From the NCBI GenBank assembly GCA_947456995.1, contig CANGVB010000029.1, positions 1-13,750 on the forward strand: DNA of 13,750 nt, read 5' to 3'. A model generated the notes under the pieces. The model did not search any database. It had not been told where the DNA came from and worked only from the letters and a program-made list of their open reading frames with translations. Origin of the DNA: Bryobacteraceae bacterium. Its GTDB lineage: Bacteria; Acidobacteriota; Terriglobia; Bryobacterales; Bryobacteraceae. Shown here in pieces: positions 1-13,159 of this stretch. The position numbers were made by a program, and so were the translations under genes. Positions within the stretch are counted from its first letter, which is position 1. Each line of letters begins with the position of its first letter.

Positions 1-122
1 AGATGACCAGCATCCTCGATCGCACCTCAAAAGGCCCAACAGGATCCCGCATCGAAACCTACAAGCTCAAGGAGTCCACCGCCATGCGCCACCACGTCCA
101 CACCGACGGCGAACTGGCCTAG
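1..122 (+). CDS. 3' end of an unrecognised plus-strand gene (partial)
   Basis: Codons starting at position 3 stay open to a TAG at 120..122. The codons are strongly coding-like: most third positions are C or G. The visible 39 residues are hydrophilic and end in RHHVHTDGELA. An ATG occurs at 3..5, but it is more likely an internal methionine of a gene that begins left of the window, because no upstream sequence is visible to show a ribosome binding site. I do not recognise the family from so short a tail. It is the only plus-strand gene seen, and it converges on the cyclase gene, with the two stop codons sharing bases 120..121. Confidence 0.6.
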   Translation, partial: MTSILDRTSKGPTGSRIETYKLKESTAMRHHVHTDGELA

Positions 123-757
123 GCTGGTCTTCGAAGTACCACTCTTGCGGGCGCCCCATCGGCGCCCGCAATCTTGAGTGGAAGGCAAATCAGTTCGTAT
201 TCCCCCGGCTCAACCTCACTCAGTTCCAACCCTTCAATCACCGCAATCCCCGCCCCCAGAATCGTCACATGCGTCTCAACCGTATCGTGATAGAAGCCAC
301 CAATCGACAGGTAGTCCACCCCCACCGTCTTCACGCCACACTCCACCAGATACTTCGCCCCTTCATCAGCGATATAGACAAAGTCCTTGTCAAAATCAGG
401 CTTCGCCCACGACTCTCTCGTGTTCTTCGTCTTGAAGATCAGACGCTCTCCGCGCTGGGGCTTTAACGTCTCAAGCTCCGCTCGGCGGATCGCCACCGGA
501 TCTTGAATCTCAACCACCCGCGCCGGCCCGATCATCGCATCCAAAGGAGTCTGATCAATCCCGGCCCCATCGTTGATGAAGTGCCGAGGAGCATCCATGT
601 GCGTCGCCGTATGAGCGCTCATATGGAGCTTGGTCACGTTGCACATATCGCCGCGATCCATCTCAGCCACCTGAATCAAACTTGGAGCTGCATCCCCGGG
701 CCAGCAAACCATCCCGTCCTTCAAAGGCACGCTCACATCCCAATAACGCCAGTTCAT
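119..757 (-). CDS. Cyclase family protein, arylformamidase (kynurenine formamidase)-like
   Basis: A 212-residue protein of the metal-dependent cyclase/arylformamidase family, whose best-known members hydrolyse N-formylkynurenine in tryptophan breakdown. The family signature HTATHMDAPRHF lies at residues 49-60, with His49, His53 and Asp55 as the expected metal ligands. The C-terminal half has the usual GVDYLSIGG (146-154), a conserved His163 and the IEGLEL block around Glu175. The length is normal for the family. The frame is open further upstream to a GTG near 916, but I chose the ATG at 757. It begins the conserved MNWRYWDVSVPL segment, has a purine-rich AAGGGGAG just upstream (760..767), and forms an ATGA overlap with the stop of the preceding gene, a sign of translational coupling. 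The substrate is not proven: related cyclases act on other amides and esters. Confidence 0.88.
   Translation of the reverse strand: MNWRYWDVSVPLKDGMVCWPGDAAPSLIQVAEMDRGDMCNVTKLHMSAHTATHMDAPRHFINDGAGIDQTPLDAMIGPARVVEIQDPVAIRRAELETLKPQRGERLIFKTKNTRESWAKPDFDKDFVYIADEGAKYLVECGVKTVGVDYLSIGGFYHDTVETHVTILGAGIAVIEGLELSEVEPGEYELICLPLKIAGADGAPARVVLRRPA
145..171. other. Perfect GC-rich inverted repeat at the end of the cyclase gene
   Basis: Arms 145..155 (TTGCGGGCGCC) and 161..171 are an exact 11-bp inverted repeat with a 5-base loop. An outer CCACTC/GAGTGG pair is interrupted by four bases on one side. It lies inside the last codons of the cyclase gene (the IAGADGAPA segment) and 22 bases past the stop of the converging plus-strand gene. 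It could slow or end transcription from the plus-strand gene, but no T-run follows on either side, and the repeat may simply reflect Gly/Ala codons. Confidence 0.4.
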
Positions 758-999
758 GACTCCCCTTCTCCCTTCTTGATCCGCCGCTTCACCAGAAAAC
801 CCGTACGGTTCGGTAGCTCTCTCCAAATCAGCAGCCAGGTCCCCAGCAAACTGATCATCGTGGATACCCCGCCAACCAGCAGATAGTCGATAGGCTTCAG
901 AGGCCTCGGCATCCACTGCAACATCACAAGAGCAGAGAGGCCAAACAGCACCAGATCCAGAAGCACCAAAGCAATGATTCGAGAGCTACTCAATTCCAT
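754..999 (-). CDS. Small two-span inner-membrane protein, unknown function
   Basis: An 81-residue protein with two clear hydrophobic segments at about residues 9-30 and 37-59, joined by a short loop containing PRPLKP. It ends in a strongly basic cytoplasmic-type tail (KRRIKKGEGES). No family is recognised. It starts 6 bases after the stop of the flavoprotein reductase gene, and its TGA overlaps the ATG of the cyclase gene by 4 bases, so it sits inside a translated operon, which supports its being real. No strong Shine-Dalgarno precedes it (only a GAGAAG-like stretch within the end of the upstream gene), so its translation probably depends on coupling. Confidence 0.75.
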   Translation of the reverse strand: MELSSSRIIALVLLDLVLFGLSALVMLQWMPRPLKPIDYLLVGGVSTMISLLGTWLLIWRELPNRTGFLVKRRIKKGEGES

Positions 1000-3427: not shown

Positions 3428-6400
3428 TTAGTCAATCACTCGCAGATTGATCGTCGTAACCGAACCGCCCTGCGAGATGGTGAGCGGAATGCTAAAGCCG
3501 GTTGGTACCCAGCGCAAGATCTGTGCATTGATCTGGTAGACCCCAACTTCGCCAGGAGTCAACCCAGCGTAAGTCACCGGGATCTCAACCCCGCCAAGAG
3601 AAACAACAGGTGCAACCAGCGAGCTGGCCAACGGGTCTGATGGAGCACTCAAGCCTGCCTCAACAGCAGGATTGGTCTTACCCATCCCAGTCAGATAGAT
3701 CACGATGTTGTCGTTGCGCTTCACAGGATTGGAGTTGGTGGCGAGAAGGCCATTGCGTCCATTTACGATGGTTGCAACCGGTGTATCGATCCCTTCAATC
3801 AAGGTGCGGAAGATACTCGGCGCAGTGGGTGCGACCGACAGGTTAAAGTTGTCACTCACACCGCCCGGAGTGCGCAGGATCAGCGTCGTGCTGCCAGCGA
3901 TCTCGAACGGGATCTGAGCATTGATTTCTCGTCCGCTGACAAAGATCAACGGAATCGGGAGGCCATTGACCGTGATGCAGCTTTCACCCAGTGCCGTCGG
4001 GAGAGGGCGCTCACGTGAGGCCTGATTGATCGGGCTGAGATCGTTGCCTTCAATTTTGACCAGGCTGCCTGGAGCGATTGAAGTTGAACCATCTGCAAGA
4101 TTTGTCACTCGCGTAATCCTTGGTGTAGCGACGGCAGCATCATAGGTCCAGGGGAGGACAGTGAAGCCGGATACAGTGAGGACTACGATTGAGTTCCTTG
4201 AGTAGAGAGGGGCAACTGTGCGAATAAAGGGCTGAGTGACGGCATTGGCTGGTACTGGTGACTCAACGATCCGGGTGCCAATCTGCGCTGACCCTGTAGG
4301 GAAAGAAATGCGCTGGATTGTCCCCGGGCCATCTGGACTACCCGAAGTGGTGCGGAACCCGATGTTGTCGACAAAAGCGAAGCCGTAATTCGGCTGCGAA
4401 TCAGGAGCGAGTCGACGGATAGGCACCAGAGAACCGTTTAACAGGAAGTTGCCAACGACAAACTGATCGAAGCTCGAGGCGGCATAGGATCCACCAAGAG
4501 TAGTTACATCTTTACGCGCGGCGACGAAGGAGTTTGAATTCCCGTCAAACAACAGCGTCGTGCCGTCTTTGGATGCACCCATGATCTTGGCTCCATTGGG
4601 GGAAGCAATCAGGACGGTATCGATATTGATGTTGTTTTCGAAAACGTCCAGGGTTGCAAGCTCGGTAGCCCTACCGGAGCTGAAATCGACTCTCGAGATC
4701 TTGTGCTGAGGACCCGCGACGCGACTGGCGACCAGAGTGGCTCCTGCTGCACTGGCGATACTGCGCGGATAGTGCCCCTGTGGCATCGCAATCGAAGGCT
4801 GCTGTTGCAGATTATCGAGTGAATAAACGTAGATGACCTGGGCATTGTCGCTGCCGATCAAGAGGTTGCGTCGATCGAAGCTGATGGCGAGCTGGGTCGG
4901 TGTGTTGCCGGTGCGCAGAGTTGCAATTTGCTGGTAGCTCGAACCATCGAATACGAGTACGCTGTTGTTGTCCTGACGGATCACAAAGAAACGATTGCGA
5001 GACGGGTCGGCAAGAATGTCGACCAGGGTGCCGGGAACATTGATGCTGGTGCCGCGCTGGTCAGGCTCTTTCGAATTGATCAGCAGGCGGATGCTCGAAG
5101 AGTTGAGAACGGATCCTTCAGAATTGATGTTGATCGTGCGCACCGCAGTACCACGAGTGTTGCTGAAAGTGAGCGGGTCAACCGAAACCGTGATCACCGC
5201 CGGAGTTACCCCGCTGAGGCTAGAAACTGTGACACCGGCAGGGATATTGGAAAGAGTAAAGTCTGTGTTCTGGCCGCTGGAATCGGTCACCACGAATTGT
5301 TGTACCGCAATGCGGCGATCACAGAAATTGCCACGGAAAACAAGGTCGGGAACATTGGAGACCACTTTTCGCTGGCGATGCAGGTCGCCAACCGGGAGAA
5401 TCATGACGCCGCTTTCGCTGCTTGCGTATACAGTGTTGCCATCGGCACTCAGGACTGCCTTGCCTGAAAGATTTTCAGGCAGCTTGATACGCTCGCGAAC
5501 CGTGAGGTTGTCGACATCGAGTACTTGAAGGATCTTGGCCTGGTCGATGCCTGCGACACCGGCAGGAGGTGTTGTGCCACCGGTAGTAGTTGTTGTGGCA
5601 GGGGTTTGCTCATTCATTTGGGCATAGATGAGTCCGCGTGCAGAATCGATGACGTGACCGCCGATGTTGAGTACTCCGCTCACGTTCGGGAACTGGCTCG
5701 TCATGATGAAGTTTTCATTGAACATGGCCCAGCCAATCAATACGTTGGTGCCGTTTGCGTTGGTGCTGAGCGTACGGGGCCCGAAAGGTGGGGAAGCCAC
5801 CCAATAGCCACTGAGTAGTGACTGACCGACATCATAGCGATAGACAAAGACATTGGCATCAGCAGCAGAAGCCTGCAGGACACCGAAAATTCGTGTGCCA
5901 TCCCTGGTGGCCGAGCTCGAGCTGGCTACGACGTTCTGGGGATAGTTGTTGACCGGAACGGGCAGCGTCTTCAGCACAAGGTCGGTAATCGACTGCAGTG
6001 TGCGAGTGGTGCCGGTAATGGGGTCAAAAATCAGGAATGCATTTGAGGTACCGACCAGTGCGAGGCCGTCGGAGCCGAAGGCGACGCTCAGTGGGGTGGC
6101 CGTCAGCGAAAACGTCTGTCGCTGATTGGATTCCAGATTGATCAGCGTGAGGGCATTGCGGGGCTGATTGGGAGTGGCGAAATTGCCAAAATGGGCAATC
6201 AGCAACCAGCGACGGTCTGGCGAAATCGCCAGGGCGCCAGGCTGCGGTGCCACATTGAATGAGGTTTGAATCACGCCAGTCTCAAGCGACATGACTTCAA
6301 TCCGGTTGCCAGTGAAGTTGGCGATGTAGAGAACACCACGCCCTTCGTCCAGCACCAAATCAGCAGCCTGCCCGCCAATGATGATGGGCCTGCCGAAAGT

Positions 6401-6511
6401 AGCAGCGGATGCGTTGCCCGCAAAGGGACCAACCAGGAGCGCCAGCGTCAGCAACGCGCCAGTCCAAGTAAATATCTTGTTTGCCATTTTCATGCCCAAA
6501 ATGCCTTTCAT
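3428..6511 (-). CDS. Large secreted beta-propeller protein with Solibacter-type C-terminal domain
   Basis: A 1,027-residue exported protein. Residues 1-36 form a signal peptide ending in GNASA. Residues about 40-375 contain repeated strands of the YVTN/WD-like propeller type (LYIANFTGNRIEVMSLETG, LAISPDRRWLLIAHFG), interrupted by a low-complexity TPATTTTTGGTTPPAG loop near 303-317. Residues about 385-480 resemble an Ig-like beta module. A second propeller-like stretch follows from about 490 (FFVIRQDNNSVLVFDG, LAISFDRRNLLIG). The last ~230 residues, from about 799, match the C-terminal domain abundant in Solibacter (TIGR03437 type), including ALGESCITVNGLPIPL, INAQIPFEI, IYLTGMGKTNP and VYQINAQI. 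The function of that domain is unknown; it probably acts at the cell surface or outside the cell. GGAGGG (6519..6524) lies 7 bases before the chosen ATG. The gene follows the Tad operon and the small ORF; a Tad link is inference only. Confidence 0.85.
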   Translation of the reverse strand: MKGILGMKMANKIFTWTGALLTLALLVGPFAGNASAATFGRPIIIGGQAADLVLDEGRGVLYIANFTGNRIEVMSLETGVIQTSFNVAPQPGALAISPDRRWLLIAHFGNFATPNQPRNALTLINLESNQRQTFSLTATPLSVAFGSDGLALVGTSNAFLIFDPITGTTRTLQSITDLVLKTLPVPVNNYPQNVVASSSSATRDGTRIFGVLQASAADANVFVYRYDVGQSLLSGYWVASPPFGPRTLSTNANGTNVLIGWAMFNENFIMTSQFPNVSGVLNIGGHVIDSARGLIYAQMNEQTPATTTTTGGTTPPAGVAGIDQAKILQVLDVDNLTVRERIKLPENLSGKAVLSADGNTVYASSESGVMILPVGDLHRQRKVVSNVPDLVFRGNFCDRRIAVQQFVVTDSSGQNTDFTLSNIPAGVTVSSLSGVTPAVITVSVDPLTFSNTRGTAVRTININSEGSVLNSSSIRLLINSKEPDQRGTSINVPGTLVDILADPSRNRFFVIRQDNNSVLVFDGSSYQQIATLRTGNTPTQLAISFDRRNLLIGSDNAQVIYVYSLDNLQQQPSIAMPQGHYPRSIASAAGATLVASRVAGPQHKISRVDFSSGRATELATLDVFENNINIDTVLIASPNGAKIMGASKDGTTLLFDGNSNSFVAARKDVTTLGGSYAASSFDQFVVGNFLLNGSLVPIRRLAPDSQPNYGFAFVDNIGFRTTSGSPDGPGTIQRISFPTGSAQIGTRIVESPVPANAVTQPFIRTVAPLYSRNSIVVLTVSGFTVLPWTYDAAVATPRITRVTNLADGSTSIAPGSLVKIEGNDLSPINQASRERPLPTALGESCITVNGLPIPLIFVSGREINAQIPFEIAGSTTLILRTPGGVSDNFNLSVAPTAPSIFRTLIEGIDTPVATIVNGRNGLLATNSNPVKRNDNIVIYLTGMGKTNPAVEAGLSAPSDPLASSLVAPVVSLGGVEIPVTYAGLTPGEVGVYQINAQILRWVPTGFSIPLTISQGGSVTTINLRVID

Positions 6512-6802: not shown

Positions 6803-7726
6803 CTACATGTTGTTCATCATTGGTCCAAGTTCGCGTACGATCTTAACGGCCATGGGCCCAACCGTGACGAGAAACAAGGAAGGCAAAATACAGAAAAAGA
6901 TAGGGAAGATCAGCTTTACGCCAAGCTTGGCGGCCTTCTCCTCAGCCACCTGGCGTGCATGGACCCGCATGAAATCGGCGTGCTGGCGCAGGCTCTGGGC
7001 GACGCCAGTGCCAAAGCGGTCGGCCTGGATGAGCACAGCTACAAGTTTTTTCAAGTCATCCACGCTGGTGCGCTCGGCGAGGTTGCGAAGGGCCTCGACG
7101 CGGCGTTTGCCCGCCTTGAGCTCCAGGTTGACCAGCATGAATTCTTCGCAAATTTCAGGGTGCGCATGCTCCAGTTCTTTTGATACCTGAAGGATGGCCT
7201 GATCGAGACCAAGACCACTCTCGACGCAAACGACAAGCAAGTCTAGACCATTGGCCAAGCCACGCTGAATTTCTTTCTGGCGGCGTTTGCTCAGGATGTT
7301 GACATATTCGTTTGGACCAAAGAAGCCGGCCGCCACTGCAGCAAGCACTGCGACAAACTTGTTACTTGCGTCGGCTGGGGAGCCGGCCACAAGCAGACTC
7401 ATTACCACAGGCACAACGACACCGAAAAATACTTTGGAACCGTAGAAAATCTTTAGCGCATTGGGCCCGCGAAGGCCTGCCTTGATCAGGCGGCGCTGCA
7501 TGATCGAGACGTCTTTGGGCGAAGCAGGAAGAACGTCGCCAAGTTTCTGGACTAACTCGTGAAAAACCAGGCTCGGATGCTTGGGGGCCGTATCCGGGAT
7601 GTCCATTGCGACGCCGGTTACGCGTTCGATCGCTTCTTTGGGCTGGACCCACATCCTCATGCCGACAACAGAGACGGCAATGGCGACGAGAATAAAAATG
7701 GCGAAAGCCGTGAGAATCATGATCAT
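6803..7726 (-). CDS. tadC: TadC, inner-membrane platform protein of the Tad pilus
   Basis: A 307-residue polytopic protein of the type II secretion F (GspF-like) family. In Tad systems TadB and TadC form the inner-membrane platform on which the CpaF motor drives pilin assembly. Hydrophobic spans are seen at about residues 3-23, 98-115, 123-137 and 271-297. The F-domain core is at about 150-260, with the typical NGLDLLVVCVESGLGLDQAI and the IQADRFGTGVAQSLRQHADFMR segment. The start is at an ATG 12 bases after the tadB stop, preceded by GAGGTG; a second ATG two codons on is possible. The short gap and the order tadB-tadC are typical. It is the last recognised Tad gene on this transcript. Confidence 0.9.
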   Translation of the reverse strand: MIMILTAFAIFILVAIAVSVVGMRMWVQPKEAIERVTGVAMDIPDTAPKHPSLVFHELVQKLGDVLPASPKDVSIMQRRLIKAGLRGPNALKIFYGSKVFFGVVVPVVMSLLVAGSPADASNKFVAVLAAVAAGFFGPNEYVNILSKRRQKEIQRGLANGLDLLVVCVESGLGLDQAILQVSKELEHAHPEICEEFMLVNLELKAGKRRVEALRNLAERTSVDDLKKLVAVLIQADRFGTGVAQSLRQHADFMRVHARQVAEEKAAKLGVKLIFPIFFCILPSLFLVTVGPMAVKIVRELGPMMNNM

Positions 7727-7738
7727 AAGAGCACCTCG

Positions 7739-8716
7739 TTAAACTTCGATCTTTACGATCTGCTGCATTACCCAATAACCAATCAGCTGGAGACCAACTC
7801 CTCCTGCTGCCATGTAGTTGCCAATTTCGTCATTGAAGAAGAAGAGAATGTAGTCTCTATTGGTAAAGAACATGAGGACGGCAACAACAATCGGAATGCT
7901 GCTCAGTGCCGTGCCTGTCATCTTGCCGTGAGCTGAAATCGTTTTGATTTTGCCTCGCAATTTGAAGCGCTCGCGGATGATGTAAGCAAGTTTGTCGAGA
8001 ATTTCAGCGAGATTACCGCCGGTTCGTTTTTGCAGGATGACGGCAGAGACGAAAAATTGAACATCGAGAAGCGGAACTCGCTTGGCCAACTTCTCAAGGG
8101 CGACATCGAGCGGAAGCCCGAGGTTGTGTTCTTCAAAAGCCCGTTTAAATTCGCTGGCCAGCGGCTCCTGAAATTCACGGTGGATCATCTCAAGCGACAC
8201 AGAGAAGGCATGCCCAGCTCGCATTGAGCGGGAAACGAATTCGAGCGAATCCGGGAAGAGCTCTTCGAAGCGGTGGATGCGGGAGTTGCGCTTTCGGATC
8301 ACGAAAAGAAGGGGCATCAAGCCACACAAAGCAGCCGGGATCAGACCGAGAATCCTAAACTTTGGGGGAAGGAAGAAATGCACGGCCAGATAGCCGATCA
8401 GGAAGCCGCCGAGACAGGCGTGCACCAGACGGGCGACGCGCCATTTCAGACCTGATTGCTCAAGTAGCGTTTTCAGCCTGGGCTGGAGATCGAATCTCTT
8501 GAGGACACGAAGTGCAAACTTGCCGGTTTGCAAATCTTCGGTTTCAATCAGCGCAGGACCGCGGGTCTTGGCTTTGACTTTAGCTTTGGTTTCTTTGCCA
8601 GCCAAGCGCGATTTGATCTTGTCGACATCCTGGCTCTTGAGGACGTTGGTAACCAAATACCAGACCACCATGGAGCCAACCCACACGGCGATCGCGATCA
8701 TGATGAAAAAGCCCAT
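7739..8716 (-). CDS. tadB: TadB, inner-membrane platform protein of the Tad pilus
   Basis: A 325-residue type II secretion F-family protein, partner of TadC in the pilus assembly platform. It has an N-terminal membrane span (about 3-23), a charged Lys-rich linker (about 32-52), a hairpin of two spans (about 98-117 and 122-140), the F domain (about 150-262) with FPDSLEFVSRSMRAGHAFSVSLEMI and QKRTGGNLAEILDKLA, and two C-terminal spans (about 268-285 and 303-321). The sizes and order fit TadB. The ribosome site is AGAGGAAAT before the ATG at 8716. The gene begins 32 bases after the TAG that ends the displaced CpaF tail, but 203 bases after the premature TAA, so the cpaF nonsense codon could reduce its expression by polarity. 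Confidence 0.9.
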   Translation of the reverse strand: MGFFIMIAIAVWVGSMVVWYLVTNVLKSQDVDKIKSRLAGKETKAKVKAKTRGPALIETEDLQTGKFALRVLKRFDLQPRLKTLLEQSGLKWRVARLVHACLGGFLIGYLAVHFFLPPKFRILGLIPAALCGLMPLLFVIRKRNSRIHRFEELFPDSLEFVSRSMRAGHAFSVSLEMIHREFQEPLASEFKRAFEEHNLGLPLDVALEKLAKRVPLLDVQFFVSAVILQKRTGGNLAEILDKLAYIIRERFKLRGKIKTISAHGKMTGTALSSIPIVVAVLMFFTNRDYILFFFNDEIGNYMAAGGVGLQLIGYWVMQQIVKIEV

Positions 8717-8748: not shown

Positions 8749-8919
8749 CTAGACTTCTTCAACTTCGTCAAAAAGATCCGGACGAAGCCGAATGCCGGCC
8801 GAGAGAAGCTTTTCGTAGAACTTGGGACGAATGCCTGTGGCGGCAAAGCGGCCGAGTACTTTGCCTTCGGGGGAAAGACCACGCTTTTCAAAGACGAAGA
8901 TGTCTTGAATGGTGATGAT
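8749..8919 (-). pseudogene. cpaF: Stranded C-terminal part of CpaF after an in-frame stop
   Basis: Directly after the TAA at 8920..8922, and in the same frame, 56 codons run to a TAG at 8749..8751. They encode the usual CpaF end: ITIQDIFVFEKRG just after the stop, then GRFAATGIRPKFYEKL and a terminal DEVEEV. Family members normally read GMEG, then Glu or Asp, then an ITxQDIF-like block, so a GAA or GAG codon changed to TAA explains the break. No ATG or GTG start is placed to express this tail alone, though a GGAAGG lies just before the stop. The tail shows no further damage, so the break is recent, an error in the sequence, or tolerated. Confidence 0.85.
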
Positions 8920-10110
8920 TTAGCCTTCCATGCCGGTAACTTCAGTAATCGAGGTGACGCGGCGGGAGCCGTCGCTCAGACGGGCGGCCTGGACAAAAAG
9001 ATTGACGGCGCTTGAGATCTGCTGGCGCACGCTTTCGAGTTTCATGTTCGAATTGGCAAGGCTCACCATGACCTCAAGACGGGAGACAGCGTCGCGCGGG
9101 GTGTTGGCGTGGACGGTGGTCAAACTGCCGTCGTGACCCGTGTTCATCGCCTGTAACATGTCGAGGGCTTCTTCGCCGCGGACTTCGCCGACGACGATAC
9201 GATCGGGACGCATACGCAAGCTGTTGACGAGGAGTTCGCGCTGGCGGATGGCACCGTGACCTTCGAGGTTGGCGGGCCGGGTTTCAAGGCGCGCCACGTG
9301 TGGCTGCTTGAGCTGGAGTTCGGCAGCGTCTTCGATGGTGACGATACGCTCTTTCGGATTGATGAAGAAGCTGAGGGCGTTGAGCAGTGTCGTCTTACCG
9401 GCACCGGTGCCGCCGGCGATGATGATGTTGAGTTTGGCTTTGACGGCGGCTTCGAGAAGTTCCATCATGCCTTTGGTCATGGCCTTGCGATCGACCAGAT
9501 CGGGGGGCATGAGTTTGTCGGCAGAGAAACGGCGGATCGAAAGGAGCGGGCCGTCGACGGCGAGCGGGGGAATGATGGCGTTGACGCGGCTTCCGTCGAG
9601 GAGACGGGCGTCGACCATTGGGTTGGATTCGTCAATTCGGCGACCGACCTGGCTGACGATTTTGTCGATGATGCGCAGCAAGTGCTGGTCGTCACGGAAG
9701 GTGACGTTGGTGAGCTCAAGCTGGCCCCTGCGCTCTACGTAGACCTGCTTGTGAGTGTTGACCAGAATATCGGAGATCGTAGCGTCCTGAAGCATGGCTT
9801 CGAGCGGGCCGAGGCCGAAGACTTCATCGAGTACTTCGTCGCAGATTTGCTGCTTTTCAAGAGCGCTCAGCAGCGTGGGCTCGGCATCGATCAAAGCGAT
9901 CAGGGCCTGGCGGACTTCTCCACGAACGCGCTGGTTATCAATCGTGGCGAGGGCCTCAAGATTGATCTTGTCGAGGAGCTTGCGGTGGAGGGTGAACTTG
10001 AGTTCCTGATATTCAGGCTTCAGTTGGACCTTGGGCTTGCCGGCATTTTTGAGCAGGCGTTGCTCCCAACTCAGTTGTGTTTTTGATCCGCTATCTAATG
10101 GGCTAATCAT
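8920..10110 (-). CDS. cpaF: CpaF/TadA secretion motor ATPase, truncated by premature TAA
   Basis: The hexameric VirB11/PilT-type ATPase that powers Tad pilus assembly at the cytoplasmic face. The 396 visible residues include the N-terminal domain (about 30-200), Walker A GGTGAGKT at 233-240, the Asp box IEDAAELQL at 259-267, Walker B region RIVVGEVRG at 304-312 and the His box [11 protein letters not shown] at 326-336. Reading ends at GMEG with an in-frame TAA; the expected remaining 56 residues follow in frame (8749..8919), giving a full length of 453 residues, normal for the family. The ATPase core is complete but the conserved C-terminal segment is cut off, so function is doubtful unless the stop is an error. 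The ATG at 10110 has only a weak purine-rich site; it lies 37 bases after cpaE. Confidence 0.9.
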
Positions 10111-10147: not shown

Positions 10148-11362
10148 TCAGGTTTGAGACAAAGCGGGACGGGCCGCCTCAAGCATGTTCATCGACTTCT
10201 TTTTTTCGGCTTCGATGCTGCCCGAAATCTTCTTGGACAGCCCTTCGACGGCTTTACCCAATTCGCAATCTGAGCCAAGGGGCTGGCCCAGGGTCACGAC
10301 ACGGTGGAGCGAGAAGTAATCGTTCGGGAACATGGCATCTACGGGGGAGTTGAATATCTTTTCAAGGTCTGCCAGACCAATTCCGTCGCGCTTGTTGACG
10401 CGATTGACCAGGAGCTTGTAGCGGTCTTTGGTGAGACCGAGCTGGCTAAGCATGTTGATCGCCTTGCGGGCCAGATGCAGGCTGGGCAACTCGCCGGTTG
10501 AAACCAGGTACATGTAGTCGGCCTCGGTAAGCATGAGAAGACTGGGCCGGTAAAAAACAGCCGGGAGATCGACTACGATCCAGTCATAAAGCATGCGGGC
10601 ATATTGGAGAACGGCGTGGAGCCTGTCGCTGGGAACTTCAGCCGAAACTGGAGAATCCGGAGCCGGAAGGATATCGATGCCACCGCTGTGGGCGATCATC
10701 GAACTCCAGATGGCCGGATTCAGCCGGTTGGCATGTTCGATCGCATCCAGCATGGAGTATGCATGATTGAGCTTGAGGTAAAAGCCAATGGTGCCGCCCA
10801 TCAGATCGAGATCCAGCAGGAGGACGCGGCGACCAGTCATTTTCTTTAGCGTGAAAGCGGTCTGAGCACTAAGAGTAGAAGCTCCCGAACCGGGCTTAGA
10901 GCTGGCAAAGGCGATTACCTTGCCAAGTTCACGCTCTGTGCTCTGTTCTGGTTCTTTGACGCGGCGCAACCGGTCTGCGGCTTCAAGTTGTGCATTCTGC
11001 TCGAATGGAGCGTAAAGGAAATCACTTGCACCGAGACGAAGCGATCGCAACAAAGCGTCGGAATCATTTTGGCTGTGAATACCGATGACACTTGCCGACG
11101 GGGCAACCTGAGAAATCATCTGAATCAACTCACAGGCTGCGTCGATGTTGCTGGCTAAATCGAGGAGGACAACGTCGGGTTGAACCTGACGCAGGCGAAT
11201 CTCAAGGGTCTGACGAGGCGGATACCCCTTGAGATCAGCCATGATCTGGAAGGCGCGAGATTGCTCCACGGAACGAGTGAATACAGAAGCCAGGTCGCGA
11301 TCCTGACAAATCAGGATGGCGGTGAGCTCTGCTCCAATCGAACCAAATGAGGCTGAATTCAT
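10148..11362 (-). CDS. cpaE: CpaE/TadZ, MinD-like pilus localisation ATPase
   Basis: A 404-residue cytoplasmic protein that in Tad systems positions the pilus machine at the cell pole. Residues about 13-130 form a degenerate receiver-like domain; it keeps an Asp68 in VVLLDLA but lacks a clear full acidic pocket. Residues about 147-380 form a ParA/MinD-type ATPase. The deviant Walker A reads KPGSGAST (156-163): the leading signature Lys is present, but the usual Lys before Ser/Thr is Ala, as in other TadZ/CpaE proteins. LLLDLDL (181-187) gives the second motif and WIVVDLPA (261-268) Walker B. The C-terminal end is Lys-rich. AAAGG lies upstream of the ATG. The gene is 41 bases after cpaC and 37 before cpaF. 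Confidence 0.9.
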   Translation of the reverse strand: MNSASFGSIGAELTAILICQDRDLASVFTRSVEQSRAFQIMADLKGYPPRQTLEIRLRQVQPDVVLLDLASNIDAACELIQMISQVAPSASVIGIHSQNDSDALLRSLRLGASDFLYAPFEQNAQLEAADRLRRVKEPEQSTERELGKVIAFASSKPGSGASTLSAQTAFTLKKMTGRRVLLLDLDLMGGTIGFYLKLNHAYSMLDAIEHANRLNPAIWSSMIAHSGGIDILPAPDSPVSAEVPSDRLHAVLQYARMLYDWIVVDLPAVFYRPSLLMLTEADYMYLVSTGELPSLHLARKAINMLSQLGLTKDRYKLLVNRVNKRDGIGLADLEKIFNSPVDAMFPNDYFSLHRVVTLGQPLGSDCELGKAVEGLSKKISGSIEAEKKKSMNMLEAARPALSQT

Positions 11363-11403: not shown

Positions 11404-13104
11404 CTAGTTTCCGCCCCCACCAGCTACTGTTTGTTCAGGTATGGCGCTGAGGCCACTATTGGCTGTGGGCGGGATCAGACGAGCCACCGGGGCAGGAACA
11501 GGGACTACTGGCGCTGGATCAGCAGGGATGACCGGGGCTGAAGGAGCAACGAGGGGTGTGCTGCCTGACGGTGAGGCGGTGTCGGTGGAAGAAGGCGCTA
11601 GATTTGCGGCCGGTACAGTGGCTACAGGTGCATTTGCGGCCGGTACATTTGCTGCAGAGGACTTCTTGCCGCTCTTCCAGAAGAGGAAGGGATTCTTTGC
11701 ATCCGTATCGGCCTTGTCGACCTTCTTCGGAGCTTCGATGGAAGAAGTTTGGCGAACCGGATCGGCCACCTTTTTGGGGGCCTTGAAGGGCTGGAGCCAT
11801 TCTTTCGGGAATTCGGGGATGGGAAGCTTGTCATCCGGGTTATACGGCTTCACAATTTCGGGGGTGACGATGACGATCAACTCAGTTTTGGTTTTGCGCT
11901 CGAGACGGCTCTTGAACAGAGCGCCAAGAATGGGGATATTCGACAGGCCAGGGAGCTTGGACATCTGGTCGGTGACGCGATCATCCATGAGGCCGGCGAT
12001 CATGAAGCTCTGGCCCTCTTTGAGTTCTACGTTGGTCTCCATACGACGGGTGGCAAGAGCGGGAATCGTGAAGCCGGACAGGGACACAGCGTTGGAGAGG
12101 TCGATGGTCGAAACTTCTGGCTTAACGTACATCTTGATGGTGCCGTTGGGGGTGATGGTTGGATTGAAATTCAAACGAATTCCGTACTCGCGAAACTGGA
12201 TTGTGACAGCGCCGGCATTGCCGCCACCCTGGAGAATCGGTACCGGGAACTCACCACCGGCAAGGAAGCTGGCTTCTTTGCCATTGAGGGTAGTCAGGTT
12301 GGGCTCAGCAAGGATTTGGAGAACGTCCTGAGTCTGGAGGGCACGAATGGCAGCACCGAGGTTGAGGTCTGGACGGAAGGCAAAGATATTGAGCGCGTCT
12401 GCGATCGTAAACGTGGACGCAGCATTGGGAATGTTCGGGCTAGTCCCCCGGACCGTTGGGAGAGTGGGCGGGGTGTACTGGTTGGTTGAAACGCCACCAA
12501 TCGTACCAGCAGCACCGCTACTGAAGAGATTGACACCGAGCTGCATTCCGGCGTTTCGATTGAGTTCGGCAAATTTGACACGGAGGATGATTTGTTGTTC
12601 AACCGGGGCAGCAGAAATCTGGAGATTGGTGACGACGGTTTTGGCCAGGGGAGTGGCAATGGCGACCGCGCGATCTGCTACATCCTTGCTTGAGACTTTG
12701 CCGACCAATGTGATCGAATCGCGGCCACTCTGGATGCGGATGTCCTCGGTGGGGAAAGTCTCGCTGAGAAGCTTGCGGATGGGCTCGACGTTATGTTCAA
12801 CAGTGATGTTGTACATGGTGCGCGCACCAGTCTTGGCCCAGACCACAACAGTGGCCGAGCCGTGGCCCTTGCCGTGGAGAAGGAACTCTTTTGCTGTGGC
12901 AGGGACAGCATCGACTACCTCAGGACTGGAGGTCGAGATGCGGCCAATTTCGACGGGATAGTCGATTACGAGGCTCTTTCCGATGGTCATGCTGAGGTCG
13001 ACGACATTCATCGACTGAGCAGCCAGAGGCATCGGAGCCGGAAGGACCATGAGGCCAGCCAGGGCAAATGCCAGGAGCTTTTGGGGATTACTGAGATAAG
13101 ACAT
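11404..13104 (-). CDS. cpaC: CpaC/RcpA, outer-membrane secretin of the Tad pilus
   Basis: A 566-residue exported secretin that forms the outer-membrane channel for the pilus. It has a signal peptide (about 1-30, ending PLAAQS), an N-terminal pilus-type domain (about 32-102), a BON-like domain (about 103-165, with SITLVGKVSSKDVADRAV) and a secretin core (about 245-418). The core has LQILAEPNLTTLNGKEASFLAGGEFPVPI (split here only by reading), GIRLNFNPTI, VELKEGQSFMIAGL and the final PGLSNIPILGALF and ELIVIVTPEIV blocks. A long tail of about 146 residues rich in Ala, Pro and Val follows. I chose the ATG at 13104, which has GAGGA 8 bases upstream (13113..13117); an ATG at 13125 and a TTG at 13137 in frame have no such site. 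The next gene, cpaE, starts 41 bases on. Confidence 0.9.
   Translation of the reverse strand: MSYLSNPQKLLAFALAGLMVLPAPMPLAAQSMNVVDLSMTIGKSLVIDYPVEIGRISTSSPEVVDAVPATAKEFLLHGKGHGSATVVVWAKTGARTMYNITVEHNVEPIRKLLSETFPTEDIRIQSGRDSITLVGKVSSKDVADRAVAIATPLAKTVVTNLQISAAPVEQQIILRVKFAELNRNAGMQLGVNLFSSGAAGTIGGVSTNQYTPPTLPTVRGTSPNIPNAASTFTIADALNIFAFRPDLNLGAAIRALQTQDVLQILAEPNLTTLNGKEASFLAGGEFPVPILQGGGNAGAVTIQFREYGIRLNFNPTITPNGTIKMYVKPEVSTIDLSNAVSLSGFTIPALATRRMETNVELKEGQSFMIAGLMDDRVTDQMSKLPGLSNIPILGALFKSRLERKTKTELIVIVTPEIVKPYNPDDKLPIPEFPKEWLQPFKAPKKVADPVRQTSSIEAPKKVDKADTDAKNPFLFWKSGKKSSAANVPAANAPVATVPAANLAPSSTDTASPSGSTPLVAPSAPVIPADPAPVVPVPAPVARLIPPTANSGLSAIPEQTVAGGGGN
11602..11647. repeat. 30-base-period repeat in the cpaC tail
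   Basis: The 16-base word ATTTGCGGCCGGTACA occurs at 11602..11617 and again at 11632..11647, a period of exactly 30 bases or ten codons. In the protein it gives two copies of VPAAN in the Ala/Pro-rich tail (about residues 487-501). It points to a tandem duplication within a low-complexity linker and a possible site of length variation between strains. Confidence 0.7.
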
Positions 13105-13112
13105 TCTTGAGT

Positions 13113-13117
13113 TCCTC
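13113..13117 (-). promoter_or_regulatory. Ribosome binding site that decides the cpaC start
   Basis: GAGGA on the minus strand, 8 bases before the ATG at 13102..13104. The two longer in-frame starts (ATG at 13125, TTG at 13137) lack a comparable site, and the shorter form also gives a cleaner signal peptide. Confidence 0.65.
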
Positions 13118-13159
13118 GGTTTCATCAGAGCCGTCAAAATAGAGCTTTACGGGAAAGCC

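Follow-up and report, generated by a model that had tools for sequence, protein, structure and literature searches.

A private in-frame TAA in an otherwise intact cpaF of a Bryobacteraceae bacterium: most likely a recent inactivation or a single-base error

The Tad locus and the interrupted cpaF

The window analysed here is a whole contig (C29) of 13,750 nucleotides from a Bryobacteraceae bacterium (genome G000; contig CANGVB010000029.1 of assembly GCA_947456995.1), on which the Tad genes cpaB, the secretin gene, cpaE, cpaF, tadB and tadC all lie on the minus strand (Table 1). The frame of cpaF (10110..8749, minus strand), read from the ATG at 10110 to the TAG at 8751..8749, contains a single internal stop, an in-frame TAA at 8922..8920 that occupies codon 397 of 453 in the minus-strand context ATG GAA GGC TAA ATC ATC ACC. 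Beyond the TAA, 56 open codons encode the normal C-terminus of the CpaF family and run into the TAG, which is followed by a 32-base gap and the tadB start at 8716. The earlier note on this DNA, made from the sequence alone, had placed a TAA directly after GMEG in cpaF and described the 56 same-frame codons behind it as a normal C-terminus ending 32 bases before tadB; its coordinates proved exact, and alignments with seven of seven congeners bore out its description of the tail.

Table 1. Features of the Tad locus in the window
Feature	Coordinates	Strand	Basis
cpaF body of 396 codons, carrying the P-loop, Walker B, His box and Arg finger residues	8923..10110	-	Pfam T2SSE 1e-57; 99.7% identity to G003 counterpart
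In-frame TAA, codon 397, private to G000	8920..8922	-	Not in 7/7 congeners nor in the 149 other family matches listed
Conserved CpaF C-terminus beyond the TAA, 56 open codons without in-frame ATG, GTG or TTG	8752..8919	-	Codon comparison; model of P0003
TAG, same place as the congeners' cpaF stops	8749..8751	-	Codon comparison
tadB, intact	7739..8716	-	Pfam T2SSF; full-length match in 7/7 congeners
tadC, intact	6803..7726	-	Pfam T2SSF; full-length or near full-length match in 7/7 congeners
cpaE (ParA-like ATPase), intact	10148..11362	-	Pfam and congener alignment
Secretin (CpaC/RcpA type), intact	11404..13137	-	Pfam and congener alignment
cpaB/rcpC, cut by the contig edge	13160..13750	-	Pfam RcpC and congener alignment

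The read-through protein, translated across the TAA, matched PF00437 (T2SSE) over residues 100–373 with 195.9 bits against a cut-off of 24.9, as does a CpaF/TadA (PilT/VirB11-like secretion) ATPase, and its gene is preceded by cpaB, the secretin gene and cpaE and followed by tadB and tadC, which is the Tad neighbourhood of CpaF/TadA. Residues 33–440 align with the Tad-pilus motor ATPase CpaF/TadA of Caulobacter crescentus (9e24, 8rjf, 8rkd; E 5.4e-130), and the motif residues coincide: the P-loop lysine, Walker B glutamate, His box, Arg finger and adenine-contacting arginine (K239, E309, H334, R299 and R383) align with Caulobacter K287, E357, H382, R347 and R431, and all five are invariant in 40 sequences. 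The roles of these residues in CpaF are taken from passages of Caulobacter structure work, including PMC11300603. In contrast to the Caulobacter protein, of which chain 9e24_A has 501 residues, the present frame stops at the position of residue 445, a counterpart obtained from the offset in the alignment with the structure. The translated product thus lacks the complete C-terminal domain (stop at 397/453), and the DNA for the remainder is present.

The other Tad genes, which the earlier note had also considered intact, do have open frames that align with those of the congeners over most or all of their length, the secretin alignment being rich in gaps. A decaying Tad locus was ruled out, since these neighbours align with the congeners and the locus carries no excess of private changes. 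Elsewhere in the window, a protein of 1027 aa that weakly matches a Pfam beta-propeller family (3428..6511, minus strand) is encoded downstream of tadC in seven of seven congeners, the counterparts in G001 and G006 being partial, at a contig end. A cyclase gene (119..916, minus strand) overlaps a small ORF at 754..999; its listed start is probably too far upstream, and four of the five matched relatives have stops in this frame around codons 36–54.

Distribution of the stop and constraint on the tail

When the read-through protein was searched against 61 genomes, cpaF was found without the stop in all seven congeners at 96–100% identity. The stop is thus private to G000 among the eight genomes of the genus, a disruption confined to one lineage with intact close relatives, as in a young pseudogene, and codon 397 is the sole cpaF residue at which G000 differs from all seven congeners. 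In the wider family search, 200 of 237 genomes had a match at E 1e-150 or better, and among the at least 150 matches listed (150 is a hand count of rows, and more matches exist) the only internal stop was the window's own, the other 149 being free of one. The best matches among named genomes were Bryobacterales and Acidobacteria assemblies, and none of the best 80 of 586 candidate named loci had a stop across the aligned stretch. None of these relatives ends its CpaF at GMEG, and a family-wide stop at this position was ruled out. At codon 397, these 80 loci carried Asp (42), Glu (23), Asn (9), Gln (3) and Ser, Ala and Arg (one each), whereas 25 relatives, a count that leaves out the loci of G027, G044, G049 and G053, carried Glu in 21 cases and Asp in four, which is consistent with the earlier suggestion of a single base change from a GAA codon.

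In a large protein collection, the 396-residue form occurred once among the best 120 of 8000 scored proteins, on one 13750-base contig, and the other 119 had at least 429 residues. Among five sequences of the best 120 that were inspected, P0003 has an identical 396-residue body with an intact tail and is present on seven contigs. Internal stops were also seen in five distant matches of the 61-genome search, at 34–39% identity (one each in G015, G022 and G007, and two in G050). Furthermore, a CpaF paralogue in G053, a genome from another family of the same order, carries a TAA at query position 415, beyond which a short stretch is still homologous before the sequence diverges (L165, 1210..2385, plus strand). 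It is perhaps a naturally shorter or a decaying CpaF, and because of its position and degenerate remainder this TAA is not the same event as the stop in G000.

The tail aligns to its end (residue 453) with the CpaF of all seven congeners, from which its 56 codons differ by 14–35 synonymous changes and by no nonsynonymous change in six genomes or one in G004; the 396 codons of the body differ by 102–187 synonymous and 1–19 nonsynonymous changes. The full alignment and the almost exclusively synonymous differences indicate that the tail is coding sequence and not a chance open frame. It has no amino acid difference from the two nearest congeners, G003 and G006, so that the seven tail sites at which these two agree and G000 departs from them are all synonymous changes. 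Under neutrality, about 22 nonsynonymous changes would be expected in the tail on the G000 branch and none was observed; a rough Poisson bound thus leaves no more than about 14% of the private branch unconstrained. The stop is thus either very young or not real, in line with the earlier proposal that the loss, if real, was recent.

The earlier note had offered four options for the TAA, namely recent loss of function, base error, phase-like variation and stop readthrough, and only the first two survive. Phase variation found no support in any tract or repeat at the site: no direct or inverted repeats of at least 10 bases were found within 8820–9020, and no homopolymer of at least four bases lies 30 bases or less from the stop. 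Nor is the tail likely to be translated separately, as its frame contains none of the common start codons ATG, GTG and TTG, though ATC and ATT codons are present.

Readthrough or recoding of the TAA, by which some full-length motor would still be made, accords with the coding constraint that has acted on the tail up to now, and the open, conserved frame beyond the stop resembles that of programmed readthrough systems. However, a stop conserved across species, as in such systems, is lacking in the 149 other family matches listed and in the best 80 named loci, and it is absent from every relative examined. In folding, the RNA that follows the stop had only a weak advantage over shuffled sequences (z -1.89, with 11 of 200 shuffles as good), which is no clear structural signal, and no stop-codon anticodon was found among 29 tRNAs, though a suppressor tRNA may be missing from a genome that is 79% complete. 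TAA is moreover an ordinary stop in G000: in 247 kb it closes 96 of the 342 long coding-like segments, and tadB, the propeller gene and also the barrel gene end with it; its use in tadB and the barrel gene had already been pointed out in arguing that a different genetic code is unlikely. Together with the lack of any other internal stop judged genuine in 82 compared genes, the frequency of TAA as a gene end and the tRNA set give no support to a different genetic code or a suppressor tRNA. Readthrough is thus very unlikely. The more specific scenario in which partial, lineage-specific recoding yields a mixture of short and full-length CpaF that sets the number of working motors, with the tail kept under selection, deserves equally little credence. 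One private nonsense change, real or erroneous and without recoding, very probably accounts for the TAA.

Predicted consequence for the motor

P0003, a homologue with its tail intact, was modelled with AlphaFold2 to judge the effect of truncation (mean pLDDT 83, with 88–96 in the blocks of the tail). In this model, the stop falls in the turn between the strands 383–395 and 398–412, the first of which begins with R383, the counterpart of the Caulobacter R431 that holds the adenine base according to a passage of PMC11300603. Strands 398–412 and 418–424, the helix 432–437 and a three-residue strand 450–452 are lost with the tail. In Caulobacter CpaF, Loop 26 lies between strands 14 and 15 and, according to the same paper, makes contact with the neighbouring subunit in the closed state; its counterpart is part of the lost hairpin. 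Since the ATPase domain would lose its final helix along with two long beta strands, the truncated motor is probably inactive. In Caulobacter, deletion of cpaF or a change of the Walker B glutamate blocks infection by the Tad-dependent phage phiCbK, as described in part of PMC11300603. The truncations described in the parts of the CpaF structure papers considered here (PMC12019362 and PMC11300603) are N-terminal, with no C-terminal one among them.

The stop might instead be tolerated, the pilus being kept at work by the truncated CpaF itself or by an intact orphan CpaF paralogue. The checked catalytic motif residues all precede the stop, and contig C300 of G000 encodes a further CpaF-type ATPase, which is intact and has 462 aa (L003, 1273..2661, minus strand); five congeners also have candidate counterparts, matched at 54–56% identity to the query. 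However, the tail that would have to be dispensable is conserved, with glycines 420, 426 and 439 invariant in 40 aligned sequences, and the two long strands and helix removed are modelled at a pLDDT of about 88–96. The paralogue, for its part, is 55% identical, and by eye no tadB- or tadC-like ORF stands beside it within 3849 bases. Tolerance of the stop is accordingly improbable. The genes that flank the paralogue on C300 appear, by eye, to encode a galactose-1-phosphate uridylyltransferase and a hydrolase.

Considering the model and the Caulobacter structures, we propose the following scenario for the case in which the TAA is real. A young nonsense substitution would have arisen at cpaF codon 397 in the sampled bacterium, and translation would stop after the strand bearing the adenine-contacting arginine. 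Without the two beta strands and the last helix, the hexameric motor would probably fail to fold or to cycle properly, and the Tad pilus would then be neither extended nor retracted.

Assembly quality and origin of the stop

The G000 assembly is a fragmented draft of 4.0 Mb in 634 contigs and is 79% complete, and for this reason a one-base consensus error is plausible. Across 2075 gap-free columns of six Tad genes, G000 has one private amino acid, compared with three each in G003 and G006 and 26–99 in five more distant congeners; codon 397 was left out of this tally because the other genomes are not identical there. Genes of G003 were also compared with G000 DNA where the fetched stretches overlap, which covered 82 of 705 predicted genes (90 kb). 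Five of the 82 were flagged: cpaF, two genes with stops in the first 22 codons, one 85-aa ORF and one apparent frameshift. In the reverse direction, three of the 79 genes compared, out of 416, were flagged, all within the first 15 codons. The five flags with stops in the first 22 codons were read as over-long start choices, the 85-aa ORF (65% identity, three stops) as spurious, and the apparent frameshift, in L045, as lying upstream of the presumed real start of its gene. We thus judged cpaF to be the sole gene of the 82 with a genuine internal stop.

A coding-potential scan with a sensitivity of 31% gave five hits in 531 kb of G000, among which the sequence downstream of the cpaF stop scored highest, and five hits in 818 kb of G003. 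A looser scan of three sets gave 31, 17 and 22 hits, in many of which a start codon closely follows the stop, the pattern expected where neighbouring genes share a frame, and in some of which none does. The locus without excess private changes and the lack of a second stop judged genuine in 82 genes indicate that the assembly is not error-rich, and in the compared part neither these data nor the coding-potential scan gave a sign of general error. An error rate of one wrong base per ten to hundred thousand, however, would hardly be visible here and would yet be sufficient to create this stop.

A one-base error in the reads or consensus of the draft, or a minority variant chosen by the assembler, with an intact cpaF in the living population, is accordingly a serious possibility, rated somewhat below even. 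The fragmented and incomplete assembly argues for it, as do the occurrence of the 396-residue form once in the best 120 proteins against seven contigs for a protein that joins this body to an intact tail, and the strong purifying selection on a tail without decay. The Tad locus without excess private changes and the absence of a second stop judged genuine in the 82 compared genes argue against it, though a low error rate would have escaped notice. A very recent, real nonsense mutation inactivating cpaF has about an even chance, and is consistent with the privacy of the stop, the undecayed tail, the intact neighbours and the locus without excess private changes; against this, an error would be just as compatible with the total lack of decay and with the intact identical-body protein on seven contigs. 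The clean surrounding sequence inclines us slightly towards a real and young loss of function. The gene resembles a young nonsense-type pseudogene of an environmental bacterium in its single in-frame stop, the absence of further visible damage and its intact neighbours, and differs in lacking any decay and in that the base is possibly an assembly error.

A literature search for cpaF with a premature stop returned papers that appear to concern Chlamydia or Listeria. The CPAF of these papers is presumably a different protein from CpaF.

The cpaF stop is thus most likely an ordinary recent inactivation or a single-base error and not a new way of reading genes, and neither outcome alters existing knowledge of CpaF. 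If the base is an error, the case indicates that one-base stops in draft assemblies need read support before pseudogenes are called. If it is real, the case would add to the examples of natural populations in which one mutation has shut down a Tad pilus, and pilus-dependent phage attack may perhaps have been the selective setting here.
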